A stretch of 64,000 bases of DNA from Reinekea blandensis MED297. Lineage in GTDB: Bacteria > Pseudomonadota > Gammaproteobacteria > Pseudomonadales > Natronospirillaceae. The notes under the pieces were generated by a model. The model was given only the letters and a program-made list of their open reading frames with translations, ran no database searches and was not told the origin of the DNA. Positions 25,878 to 41,089 of this stretch are shown here, piece after piece. The translations under genes and the position numbers were made by a program. Within the stretch, counting starts at the first letter, position 1, and each line of letters begins with the position of its first letter. The DNA is taken from contig NZ_CH724150.1 of the NCBI RefSeq assembly GCF_000153185.1, positions 588,683-652,682 of the forward strand, read 5' to 3'.

Positions 25878-26336
25878 CTACCCGTTTCGGGTAAACAGAC
25901 TGTCGGTAAAGCTGCGTTCGCAAAAATGGCAGGTCAACTGGATTGGCCGGACCTGTTCTCGCACATAAAACCGGGTAGCAACCGGCTCTGTGTGAGAAAT
26001 GCAATTGCTGTTCGGGCAATCAAAAATGCCGGTAAACTCCGCCGGTAAACCAATCGGGAACTTCTTCCTGACCTGGTAATCTTCGATGATGTTCACGGTC
26101 GCATTCGGCGCGTACAGGGCCATTTCGGCAGCATCGAACTCGCTGAACAGCCAGCCTTCCACTTTAATAATGTCTTTGGTGCCATTGCCTCCGGATCTCA
26201 GATTGAGCCCGACAGTCACCCGTGCCTGGGAATTGCGCACCTGAATACGGGACAAAATGTTCAATCCCTGCCCTGCTGGGATGTGATCAATCACGGTGCC
26301 ATTTTCAATGGCTTCTACGGCCATGGTCTCACGCAT
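25878..26336 (-). CDS. pyrI: Aspartate carbamoyltransferase regulatory chain
   Basis: A 152-residue regulatory subunit that binds nucleotide effectors and bridges PyrB trimers, as in E. coli (153 residues). Features are the N-terminal effector domain ([19 protein letters not shown]) and a C-terminal zinc site of four cysteines (CPNSNC near 111-116 and CHFC near 140-143). The ATG at 26336 overlaps the end of pyrB and has gaggag 7 bp upstream. Confidence 0.95.
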
Positions 26337-27267
26337 ACTCAAGCTCCTCGATAACCTCATTCATGACCAATGACATCAGAGCCTCACGCGCATACACGCC
26401 ATTTTCGGCCTGGGTAAAGTAATAGGCATGACGGGTTCGATCGACATCCGGGTGAATTTCATCCACCCGCGGCAGTGGATGCAGCACTTTCATGTCTGGC
26501 TTGGCTGAACTCAACATGTCGGCCGTTAATACGTAGCGAGAGGCAATGTGCATGTACTCGGTCGGATCAAAGCGCTCTTTCTGCACCCGGGTCATATAAA
26601 GTACATCGACTTTCTCAACGACCTCTTCCAGCGACGACACGTACTCGAACGTCACGCCCTGCGCCACCAGGCCGTCTTCTATGTAACCGGGCATTTTCAG
26701 GACATCGGGGGCGACAAAGTAAAAGGTCGGATTAAAGTGACACATGGCCTGCGCCAAAGAGTGCACGGTGCGGCCGTATTTCAGATCGCCGACAAAGGCA
26801 ATTGAAAGATTATCGAGCGTTCCCTGACATTCAAAGATGGTAAACAGATCCAGCAGTGTCTGGGACGGATGCTGGTTGGCACCGTCACCGCCGTTAATCA
26901 CCGGGACATCAGCAACCTCGGCGGCCAACCGGGCCGCGCCCTCGCGCGGATGGCGCATGATTATGGCATCGGCATAGGAAGAAATCATGTGAATGCTGTC
27001 GGTCAGGGTCTCGCCTTTTTTAGTCGACGTATTGGCCCCGTCTGAAAAACCGATCAATGAGCCACCCAAGCGCTGAACTGCGGTTTCAAATGAGAGTCGA
27101 GTGCGGGTGGAGGCTTCGAAGAAGCAGCTGGCGATGACTTTTTGCTGAAGATAGGGACCGGGCCCCTGTTTTTTGAAGATAGACGCTAACTTCACGATCA
27201 GTTCCAGGTCAGTCTTACTCAGATCTGAAATGGAAACGATATCCTTCCGATAGAGGGGGTTGGTCAT
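26329..27267 (-). CDS. pyrB: Aspartate carbamoyltransferase catalytic chain
   Basis: A 312-residue enzyme making carbamoyl-aspartate in pyrimidine synthesis. The carbamoyl-phosphate site is [12 protein letters not shown] (about 48-59), with [11 protein letters not shown] and [11 protein letters not shown] later. The ATG at 27267 matches the family start (MTNPLYRKD). An in-frame ATG four codons earlier is possible. It overlaps pyrI. Its promoter or leader region carries a tandem heptamer array. Confidence 0.96.
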
Positions 27268-27340
27268 ACAGAGGCCCATGACGAATTTGCGGCATTATAC
27301 AGAACGGAAGGTCCGGGCGGCTAGATGTAAGCGACAAGCT

Positions 27341-27403
27341 GTTAGCTGTTAGCTGTTAGCTGTTAGCTGTTAGCTGTTAGCTGTTAGCTGTTAGCTGTTA
27401 GCT
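27341..27403. repeat. Nine tandem copies of a 7-bp unit (GTTAGCT)
   Basis: Nine perfect copies of gttagct occupy 63 bp, 74 bp upstream of the pyrB start codon and just after a strong terminator. The array is therefore in the promoter or leader of pyrBI. Copy-number change would alter spacing but no reading frame. The same heptamer occurs inside a palindrome at the end of gltX (27616-27629). Confidence 0.95.
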
Positions 27404-27426: not shown

Positions 27427-27454
27427 AAAAAGCCACTCGAACGAGTGGCTTTTT
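27427..27454. terminator. Bidirectional terminator after tRNA-Ala
   Basis: A 13-bp perfect stem (including ccactcg / cgagtgg) with a 2-base loop, flanked by A and T runs. It ends the tRNA-Ala transcript on the minus strand, 7 bp downstream of the tRNA. Confidence 0.88.
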
Positions 27455-27460
27455 AAAATT

Positions 27461-27536
27461 TGGTGGAGCTAAGCGGGATCGAACCGCTGACCTCCTGCAT
27501 GCCATGCAGGCGCTCTCCCAGCTGAGCTATAGCCCC
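27461..27536 (-). tRNA. tRNA-Ala (anticodon GGC)
   Basis: A 76-nt cloverleaf with encoded CCA. The acceptor stem ggggcta pairs with tagctcc (one G-U), the anticodon stem is cctgc/gcagg with loop atGGCat, and the T arm is ggttcgat. It lies between gltX and pyrB. Confidence 0.95.
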
Positions 27537-27615
27537 TAAACAGGTGAGGCGTATAGTAAAGACGCCTCACTGCCCTGTCAACGCTTTTTATCAGTTTTTT
27601 TTCAGCGAATTCAAT

Positions 27616-27629
27616 AAGTTAGCTAACTT
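27616..27629. repeat. 14-bp perfect palindrome at the end of gltX
   Basis: The palindrome aagttagctaactt lies 4 bp past the gltX stop codon and contains the heptamer that is tandemly repeated upstream of pyrB. It is too AT-rich and too short to be a confident terminator. Confidence 0.5.
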
Positions 27630-27633
27630 TTAA

Positions 27634-29130
27634 TCAATCCAGGAACTGAGCGAAGCTTTTGTACTCTTTCTCGAGCGATTTCAGCTTCTTCTTGCCCAGG
27701 CCACCGAGCACATTAATCGCATAGCGGATGCGGCCACGGGTGATATCCGGACCGAGAATAGCCATGGCATCCATTACCGACACCGATGCGGTACTACCGG
27801 TTATGGCAATAAACAACGGGGCGTTGATGTCTTTGAACTTCAGTTCTTTGAAGTCGGCAATGGCTTTGATATCCGCAAAGATATTGTCTTTCTCCCAGTG
27901 GCGCTGTGTTTCCAGCTTCCACAGAATCAACTGAAGCACCTGTTTAAGCTCTTCGGTTTCCAACTTCACCGAGGCAAAACTGTCCTCGGTAATGGCCAAG
28001 GTACCCTGGAAGAAGAACGCGAGCAGCGGCGCAATATCGCCTAAGGTTTCAGCGCGCGTCTGAGCCAACGGCATCAACTGAGTGGCGAACTCAGCATTGA
28101 ACTTCCAATCAACCAGCCGCTGCAACAGTTGCTCCGGCGTGTGATGTTCGCGCAGGTATTTGCCGTTGAGCCAGTTCAGTTTTTCCTGATCGAAGACCGG
28201 GCCACCCAGAGAAATTCGTTCTACTGAAAACTTTGCTTTCATCTGCTCCAGGCTGAATACTTCTTCACCGTCTGGCATGGTCCATCCCATCATGCCGAGG
28301 AAGTTCAATAAGGCTTCCGGCAAAATGCCCAGTTCACGATAGTAGGTGACGCTGGTCGGGTTCTTTCGCTTGCTGAGCTTGGACTTGTCGGCATTACGCA
28401 GCAGTGGCAAATGCACGTAGGTTGGCACGTCCCAGCCGAAATACTGATACAGGGCAATCTGTTTTGGTGTCGAGGAGATCCACTCTTCGCCGCGCATGAT
28501 GTGGCTGATTTCCATCAGATGATCATCCACCACACTGGCCAGGTGGTAGGTTGGCAAACCATCGGACTTCATCAACACCTGCATGTCGATTTGTTTCCAA
28601 TCGATTTCGACGGTGTCGCGAAGCTCGTCATGAATGGTACAAACCCCTTCCTGAGGCACTTTCATGCGGACCACATGCTCTTCGCCGGCGGCGATGCGCT
28701 TGGCGACATCGGACGGGTCCAGGTGCATACAGTGACCGTCATAACCGATGTCTTCACCAGCGGCACGCTGCTGCTCACGCACTTCATCTAACCGTTCAGC
28801 CGTACAGAAGCAGTGAAATGCATGACCCTGATCGATCAACTGTTGGGCATATTTCTGATAAATATCGCGACGCTCAGACTGACGGTAGGGCCCATGCGGA
28901 CCACCCACGTCCGGGCCTTCGACCCAGTTCAGCCCCAGCCATCGCAGACTGTCGAGAATTGCCTGTTCCGATTCAGCCGTTGAACGGGCCTGGTCGGTAT
29001 CTTCGATGCGCAGAATGAACTCGCCACCCTGACTTTCAGCAAACACCTTGTTAAACAGTGCTATGTAGGCGGTGCCGACGTGCGGGTCGCCTGTCGGGGA
29101 CGGGGCGATACGAGTGCGAATCTTGCTCAT
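27634..29130 (-). CDS. gltX: Glutamate-tRNA ligase
   Basis: A 498-residue class I synthetase that charges tRNA-Glu. The HIGH-type motif is [10 protein letters not shown] (residues 18-27), the KMSKS-type motif is KLSKRK, and the C-terminal anticodon-binding domain ends near residue 490. It lies upstream of tRNA-Ala in the same direction. Confidence 0.96.
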
Positions 29131-39077: not shown

Positions 39078-40595
39078 TCAGGCTTCGTCGTTATGCAAAT
39101 CAACCAAGGAGGAGTCGGCCGTGGCCGTTTTCTGCTTGGAATCGTCATTCCGGCGAGCTTCCAACGCATCCAGATAGGCCTGATCGACGTCTCCGGTTAT
39201 GTAACAGCCATCAAAAACCGAACAGTCGAAATCGTGTACATCCGACTTTTTCGTCTGTGTTGCACGTTTGAGATCGTCCAGATCCTGATATACCAGCCAA
39301 TCAGCACCGATGGATTCGCAAATCTGCTCGGTTGTCCGACCATGTGCAATCAGCTCTTTGGCCGCAGGCATGTCAATGCCATACACGTTCGGATACTTCA
39401 CCTCAGGTGCTGCCGAGGCAAAATACACCTTGTTGGCGCCGGCATCGCGGGCCATCTCGATAATCTCGTTACATGTCGTGCCCCGTACAATGGAGTCATC
39501 AACCAGCAAAACGTTTTTACCTTTAAACTCCAGACTGATGGCATTCAACTTTTGACGGACTGACTTCTTCCGCTGGGTCTGACCGGGCATGATGAACGTA
39601 CGACCGATATACCGGTTCTTCATAAACCCTTCCCGGAAGTTCACTCCCAGTCGGTTCGCCAGTTGCAGGGCTGACGTACGGCTGGTGTCCGGAATCGGGA
39701 TTACGACATCAATATCGTGATCGGGCCGTAACGCCAGAATCTTATCCGCCAGCGCATCACCCATCCGTAATCTTGCTTTGTAAACAGAAATACCGTCAAT
39801 AATCGAGTCAGGACGGGCAAAATAGACATACTCAAACATGCACGGCGTTTTGCCGGTCTCTTCTGCGCACTGTTGAATGTGCAGTTCGCCTTGCGCGTCT
39901 ATATAAACGGCTTCGCCGGGTGCAACATCGTCGATCATGTCAAAACCGATCACATCCAGCGCCACACTCTCCGAGGCGACCATGTACTCAGTAGCACCAT
40001 TCGCAGCAGTCCGTTTGCCATAGACCAGCGGGCGAATGCCATTGGGATCACGAAACGCCACCATGCCTAAGCCACTGATCATCGCCACGACACCGTAAGC
40101 GCCTCGACAACGACGGTGAACACCCCGTACCGCTGCAAACATATCTTCGGCCTTAGGTTTCAGCTTACCCAACATCTGCAACTCGTGTGCAAAGACATTG
40201 AGTAACACCTCGGAGTCTGAAGTGGTGTTCACATGACGTAAATCGGACTGAAAAACCGCTCGGTTTAACTCTTCTGAGTTGGTCAGATTACCGTTGTGCG
40301 CCAACACAATGCCGTAAGGCGAGTTAACATAAAACGGCTGGCTTTCTGCCGTGCTGCTGGTACCGGCTGTCGGGTATCGCACATGACCGATACCGATGTT
40401 GCCAACCAGCGACTGCATGTGGCGCTGATGAAAAACATCTCGCACCAGCCCATTGCTTTTTCGCAGATAAAATTTGCCATCCTGCTCGGTCACAATACCC
40501 GCGGCGTCCTGACCGCGATGCTGCAATACTGTTAATGCGTCGTACAACAACTGATTGACCGGGGCCTGTCCGGTAATACCGACAACACCACACAT
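39078..40595 (-). CDS. purF: Amidophosphoribosyltransferase
   Basis: A 505-residue enzyme of the first step of purine synthesis. The N-terminal Cys2 (MCGVVGI) is the glutaminase nucleophile, with no propeptide. The phosphoribosyl site is [11 protein letters not shown]. It is the last gene of the cvpA-purF pair, 3 bp after cvpA. The C-terminal 80 residues are charged and run past the catalytic core. Confidence 0.97.
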
Positions 40596-40597
40596 AG

Positions 40598-41089
40598 TTA
40601 CTCTCCTCCAACCGACAGAATGGCACCGGATGCTTTATGAATGTTTTCACCGGTCCAACGTATTACCGGCTCGAAATAAGGAATGAGGACCGAGTCCTGC
40701 CAGAACTGATCCAATGCAAAGAGTTTCCCGAGCGCCAACACAGCGACCACGATGATAATTCCGCGCAGCAACCCAAAGACCACGCCTAAGGCCCGATCGG
40801 TTCCGGTCAGTCCGGTCATGCGAACAAACTCGCCGAGAAGATGATTGATCAGTGATCCCACAATCAGGGTGGCAAGGAACAGGATAATGAACGATGCGGT
40901 ATAGCGATGAGCCTCGTCCGCCAACCAGCCCGTCAGCAACGAAGCGAGGTTGTCACTGAACAGTCGGGCAATCACCAAAGCGGCCACCCAAGAAGCAAGG
41001 GACATCGCTTCTTTGGTAAAGCCACGCCGGATACTGATTAATGCGGAAACTAAAAGAATGCCGAGAATTGCCCAATCTAAGAAAATCAT
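40598..41089 (-). CDS. cvpA: CvpA family membrane protein
   Basis: A 163-residue inner-membrane protein with four hydrophobic segments and the N-terminal [20 protein letters not shown]. In E. coli cvpA precedes purF and is linked to colicin V production and bile resistance. Here it is also directly upstream of purF. Confidence 0.95.

Follow-up and report, generated by a model that had tools for sequence, protein, structure and literature searches.

A heptanucleotide tandem repeat upstream of pyrB in Reinekea blandensis MED297: a mutable kind of repeat with no sign of pyrimidine control

Nine perfect tandem copies of the heptamer GTTAGCT lie upstream of pyrB in Reinekea blandensis MED297, raising the question of whether the array controls pyrimidine gene expression or is a simple repeat that has grown beside a promoter. 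An earlier note on this DNA had placed the array in the pyrB promoter/leader and proposed that its length may change by slippage and thereby tune the pyrimidine genes. The window, the whole 64,000-nucleotide stretch of DNA that was analysed, has the minus-strand gene order gltX, tRNA-Ala(GGC), array, pyrB, pyrI. The array is thus between the tRNA-Ala terminator and pyrB, with pyrB to its left. The features of the locus are as follows.

25878..26360, minus strand: pyrI, aspartate carbamoyltransferase regulatory chain (Pfam PF01948, PF02748)
26329..27279, minus strand: pyrB, aspartate carbamoyltransferase catalytic chain (Pfam PF02729, PF00185)
27294..27299, minus strand: pyrB -10 box TATAAT, from a by-eye comparison with six congeners (TATAAT or TATACT at the matching place)
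27337..27403 (67 bp), no strand assigned: heptanucleotide array, nine perfect GTTAGCT units (27341-27403) plus a partial unit
27427..27454, minus strand: intrinsic-terminator-like hairpin behind tRNA-Ala
27461..27536, minus strand: tRNA-Ala (GGC)
27553..27581, minus strand: sigma-70-like promoter before tRNA-Ala
27616..27629, no strand assigned: 14-bp palindrome AAGTTAGCTAACTT behind gltX, with one GTTAGCT per strand
27634..29130, minus strand: gltX-like glutamyl-tRNA synthetase (Pfam PF00749, PF19269)

The pyrB start codon that aligns by eye with those of the congeners is at 27267, not 27279. Elsewhere in the window, ARAGORN calls a 97-base tRNA-Asp at 40525-40621, which has no Rfam support at gathering score and is probably a false call.

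The nine contiguous units that had been claimed were confirmed by reading of the sequence and by Tandem Repeats Finder, which reported 27337-27403 with a period of 7, 9.6 copies, 100% matches, and a score of 134. The only other tandem row in the 64-kb window at a minimum score of 40 scored 48. On the coding (minus) strand the unit reads AGCTAAC, or TAACAGC in another register. Both strands of the window together contain 15 copies of GTTAGCT, compared with a mean of 3.17 in 100 shuffles (standard deviation, 1.63; largest, 7). Removal of the array leaves six copies, and two of these are the two strands of a single palindrome, so only the array is exceptional. No second site with three adjacent units (up to two mismatches) was found in the whole genome, for which 4,526,761 bases (96.76% complete) were searched. 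With tandem 7-nucleotide units and a length beyond chance, the array belongs among the heptanucleotide long simple-sequence repeats.

By eye, all seven genus members have TATAAT or TATACT at the end of the spacer preceding pyrB, with a similar stretch after it. The -35 region of pyrB is weak, and the promoter was missed by a consensus scan. Transcription of pyrB would start at about 27287. About 37 bp separate the -10 box from the array upstream of it, which would therefore extend from about -50 to -116 relative to that start, outside the pyrB transcript unless transcription passes the tRNA terminator. Thus, the earlier placement of the array upstream of pyrB was correct, but its placement in the leader was not, because the array lies beyond the core promoter on the upstream side. 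An array outside both the core promoter and the transcript is expected to have a small effect on pyrB or none. As the array comes as near as -50, it may have a slight influence. Escherichia coli pyrBI is known for attenuation. In the stretch from the -10 box to pyrB, the scan of the window reported no terminator-like site, and attenuation of the E. coli pyrBI type was rejected on this basis.

Comparison within the genus also argues against conserved pyrimidine control. All seven genus members have pyrB, with 78 to 84% identity in the six others, and in all seven it is preceded by tRNA-Ala. None of the six congeners has the array before pyrB, so that the genome of the window is alone among the seven in this respect. 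The absence of the array despite the presence of both pyrB and tRNA-Ala speaks against a conserved role, and the claimed tuning of pyrimidine genes finds no support either in the congeners or in the position of the array, which is outside the conserved -10 region and would be outside the transcript. Among the 57 genomes searched, GTTAGCT arrays were found in three, the window genome and, at other places, G020 and G021, two other members of the family. The tRNA-Ala/pyrB spacer is fast-changing. In G006 (L033:880-1170) it contains three tandem copies of one unit 116 bp apart, in G002 (L037:957-1188) two copies 116 bp apart, and in G005 (L032:2526-2783) two copies 129 bp apart. The duplicated unit includes both a terminator-like stretch and the 3' end of tRNA-Ala, and the G004 spacer (L035) resembles these duplications by eye.

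The palindrome behind gltX had been noted as a further occurrence of the heptamer. It exists, but perfect 14-bp palindromes are at chance level in the window (6, compared with 3.84 on average over 50 mononucleotide shuffles), and so it does not point to a related element. In G001 and G003 the corresponding positions, compared by eye, have ...TAAGCTAAGCC... and ...TAGGCTAAGCC..., which are not palindromic, and for this reason the palindrome appears to have arisen by point mutation from older DNA. It was rejected as a second copy of an element and is probably unrelated to the array.

Arrays related to the one at pyrB differ in length. In the window genome, four places are good matches to the sequence that follows a 5S rRNA (rRNA genes are shown at two of them). 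Three have AGCTTGC arrays, with 13.4 units at C4:3180-3594 (L228), 1.4 units at C7:201870-202199 (L229), and 4.3 units at C7:801435-801784 (L230); the fourth rRNA copy (L231) is without the AGCTTGC part. Between the 13.4- and 1.4-unit copies the length difference is 84 bp, or exactly 12 units, and the sequence is identical on both sides of the array, on the right for 24 bp before the two diverge. On the left, the flanks of the 4.3-unit copy and the 13.4-unit copy agree in 989 of 1003 columns. Five orthologous arrays could be compared between G004 and G006, where the flanks are about 93 to 99.5% identical. Their lengths (G004/G006) are 128/51, 32/87, 52/74, 31/45, and 25/25 bp, so that four of the five differ. 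The difference is an exact number of whole units in the 128/51 and 31/45 pairs. In the 32/87 and 52/74 pairs it is no whole multiple of 7 because the array edges differ too. The unchanged array (25/25) has an interrupted unit. The proposal that arrays of this kind change length by slippage was therefore upheld to the extent that lengths differ, often by whole units, both within the window genome and between G004 and G006. All of the AGCTNNN arrays found in the window genome, including the pyrB array, are behind stable-RNA genes. The stretches behind 5S rRNA, as well as L231, L232, L237, and L238, also share recurrences of GTAGGAGCGAGCCTGCTCGCGATC and its complement, a sequence that presumably resembles the REP elements of Pseudomonas.

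The same heptamer forms arrays in many phyla. A scan of named genomes for a 25-mer of the array returned at least 116 stretches, with titles for 80 among the matches listed. The 80 listed titles cover Bacteroidota, Planctomycetes, Acidobacteria, Chloroflexi, Cyanobacteria, Proteobacteria, and others, with 14 from Hymenobacter and 9 from Dyadobacter, and one Methanobrevibacter (archaeal) metagenome assembly is also among the matches listed. From the at least 116 stretches, 39 with less than 1 kb of flank were dropped and 77 were analysed with a simple open reading frame (ORF) caller; one of the 77 had no flanking gene. None of the 77 arrays among the matches listed was inside a called ORF. The genes flanking the listed arrays were co-directional in 41 cases, convergent in 24, and divergent in 11, compared with 132, 37, and 56, respectively, for background spacers at the same loci. 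A gene 3' end was abutted (-25 to +6 bp) by 35 of the 77 listed arrays but by only 146 of 1125 random spacer positions. The convergent excess and the abutment of gene 3' ends are not the behavior of a promoter element, and the preference of same-heptamer arrays for convergent over divergent spacers among the matches listed is a further argument against the claimed pyrimidine tuning.

The listed arrays also have a polarity. GTTAGCT was on the gene strand at 34 of 36 array-abutted gene ends among the matches listed, and the stop codon was TAG at 28 of these 36, compared with 107 of 355 background stops; in the listed cases in which the stop was outside the perfect array, it was TAG in 8 of 14. 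In co-directional spacers among the matches listed, arrays abutting the upstream stop were sense in 18 cases and anti in 1, whereas those more than 60 bp from it were sense in 1 case and anti in 19; the two at intermediate distance were both anti. Degenerate inverted runs were present 20 to 320 bp away at 22 of the 77 listed loci, compared with 4 of 77 in bands at 600 to 900 bp, and for direct runs the corresponding numbers among the 77 listed loci were 8 and 1. L050, L057, L070, L105, L111, L116, and others among the matches listed have inverted heptamer runs in intergenic spacers, and in such listed spacers runs of the TTAGCTN type are near the upstream stop and those of the NAGCTAA type are near the next gene. 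Gene truncation by in-array stop codons was rejected as the cause of the polarity: each strand carries a stop (TAG or TAA), and truncation therefore cannot give polarity.

One tentative and, in our judgment, rather doubtful generalization is that across bacterial phyla GTTAGCT (TAG-sense) arrays stand right after stops and AGCTAAC arrays further downstream, ahead of the next gene, having been seeded or selected at gene boundaries by a direction-sensing process rather than arising by random slippage. Under such a rule the TAG stop would often be the first letters of the array, and inverted pairs would sometimes form. A polarity of heptamer arrays was not found described in the literature searched, which is no proof of its absence from print. 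If the polarity holds in an unbiased survey, it would be a testable clue to the dominance of heptamers among the longer simple repeats of bacteria.

We estimate a probability of about three in four that the pyrB array is a near-neutral heptanucleotide simple repeat (VNTR) that has grown by slipped-strand replication and has little effect on pyrB. The starting point would have been a short AGCT-containing seed in this lineage, which slipped-strand replication would enlarge in the spacer that separates the core promoter of pyrB from the terminator of tRNA-Ala, a site likely to tolerate change. Such an array would probably gain and lose whole 7-bp units. We infer slippage as the cause, mutability of the pyrB array itself, and near-neutrality. 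In favor of slippage, the pyrB array is perfect and unique in its genome, and the same spacer changes in other ways in the congeners, by duplication of units made of the tRNA tail and the terminator. Furthermore, heptamers are described as outnumbering every other kind of long simple repeat in most prokaryotic genomes (Mrazek et al. 2007, as cited in the available parts of PMC4679880 and PMC4692102), and polymerase slippage has been proposed as the cause of heptamer repeats (Mrazek et al. 2007, as cited in the available part of PMC4679880). Against it, the unit of the sister arrays is AGCTTGC, other than GTTAGCT, and the identical heptamer occurs in many phyla with a non-random orientation among the matches listed, which plain random slippage does not predict.

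It is possible, but improbable, that the pyrB array is a contingency locus in which copy number sets pyrBI transcription, as for hmw1A of Haemophilus influenzae. The array belongs to a mutable kind of repeat and is near the pyrB promoter, and the copy number of promoter heptamers modulates hmw1A/hmw2A expression (available parts of PMC2651432 and PMC8262952). However, according to the available part of PMC8262952, the hmw1A repeat lies over promoter boxes and in the 5' untranslated region (UTR) of the P2 transcript, with more copies giving lower expression, whereas a gap of about 37 bp lies between the pyrB array and the -10 box downstream of it. In addition, pyrB is a housekeeping gene, and zero of six congeners have the array before it. 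It is less probable still that the AGCT core functions as a protein-binding or structural (hairpin) motif. For a single strand of nine units, folding predictions give 4-bp AGCT hairpins, at -7.2 kcal/mol for one strand and -7.6 kcal/mol for the other, and a four-step AGCTNNN pattern was found in 7 of 22 family genomes, compared with 4 of 22 for the reversed control TCGANNN. Among 2340 unit classes, however, these fold energies rank 659 and 684, which is middling. No fold at all is obtained for the published heptamers TAACTGA and TGAAAGA, and the motif is not conserved before pyrB. When six palindromic cores were run on 143 class genomes, CTAG was found in 6, AGCT in 5, TGCA in 4, ACGT in 2, TCGA in 1, and GATC in 1, with the window genome included among the 143 and in the AGCT and TGCA counts. 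AGCT is a frequent, non-unique core. Its status as a unique core was rejected because the search pattern itself fixes AGCT and because the other palindromic cores run on these genomes were found too, and hairpin-driven expansion was rejected as a requirement in view of the middling fold energy and the two published heptamers without a fold. G021 has very many AGCTNNN arrays (for example, L009, L010, and L018), with 130 pattern matches per strand, overlaps counted. In these arrays AGCT is constant, in part because of the search pattern, and the other three letters vary by unit.

The polarity described above raises a further alternative, that the pyrB array belongs to a cross-phylum class of oriented arrays at gene boundaries, after stops or before starts, with a common process of making or keeping them. 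The class itself is suggested, among the matches listed, by the 18 sense and 1 anti arrays at the stop as opposed to 1 and 19 beyond 60 bp, and by the gene-strand GTTAGCT, the TAG excess, the abutment of gene ends, and the excess of inverted runs. The pyrB array, which stands far from the protein gene upstream of it and reads AGCTAAC on the gene strand, is oriented like the distal group. Yet it adjoins no gene end, a tRNA gene is between it and gltX, and a reading of the sequence gave no nearby two-unit inverted partner. Moreover, a single heptamer was studied, the matches listed are rich in Hymenobacter and Dyadobacter, the gene calls are crude, the categories were set after inspection of the data, and the class has no apparent function. 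We therefore think it unlikely that the pyrB array is a member.

A near-neutral repeat grown by slippage consequently remains the preferred reading of the pyrB array, a mutable kind of repeat with no sign of pyrimidine control. As a single locus the array is of little importance. It might serve as a typing marker within a variable spacer, and it warns that a repeat on the promoter side of a gene need not be a switch. The series of 1.4, 4.3, and 13.4 units behind the rRNA operons is a clean example of heptamer growth from nearly a single seed.

The GTTAGCT unit was not found named in the literature searched. The core heptamer of integron attC sites has the consensus GTTRRRY. An attC core site was rejected because GTTAGCT has C where the consensus requires R. 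Several described systems are closer. The hmw1A/hmw2A heptamers (TGAAAGA or ATCTTTC) are, like the pyrB array, perfect heptamer arrays upstream of a gene (available parts of PMC2651432 and PMC8262952), but they overlap promoter boxes and alter expression, whereas pyrB is a housekeeping gene with its array upstream of the core promoter. The array neither overlaps nor spaces the promoter boxes and, with transcription starting at the probable site, would not be in a 5' UTR. The TAACTGA direct repeats of marine Beggiatoaceae, some Cyanobacteria, and Bacteroidetes are also TAAC-containing intergenic heptamers scattered over distant phyla (available part of PMC4679880), and the pyrB coding strand can be read as TAACAGC. 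The unit is a different one, however, and the TAACTGA repeats are mostly within several nucleotides of a start codon (same part of PMC4679880), whereas the aligned pyrB start at 27267 is about 70 bp downstream of the pyrB array. The intergenic heptamers GGGAATC and GGGGA(C/T)T of Xanthomonas and Nostoc are for the most part flanked by the same genes in both of two related genomes, with differences in length and sequence, but they are G-rich and quadruplex-capable (available part of PMC4692102), and GTTAGCT is not G-rich. The closest match is with the heptanucleotide long simple repeats of Mrazek et al. 2007, as cited in the available parts of PMC4679880 and PMC4692102. They share with the pyrB array a 7-nucleotide unit, a length beyond chance, an intergenic location, and slippage as the proposed origin, and nothing essential in those parts sets the two apart.
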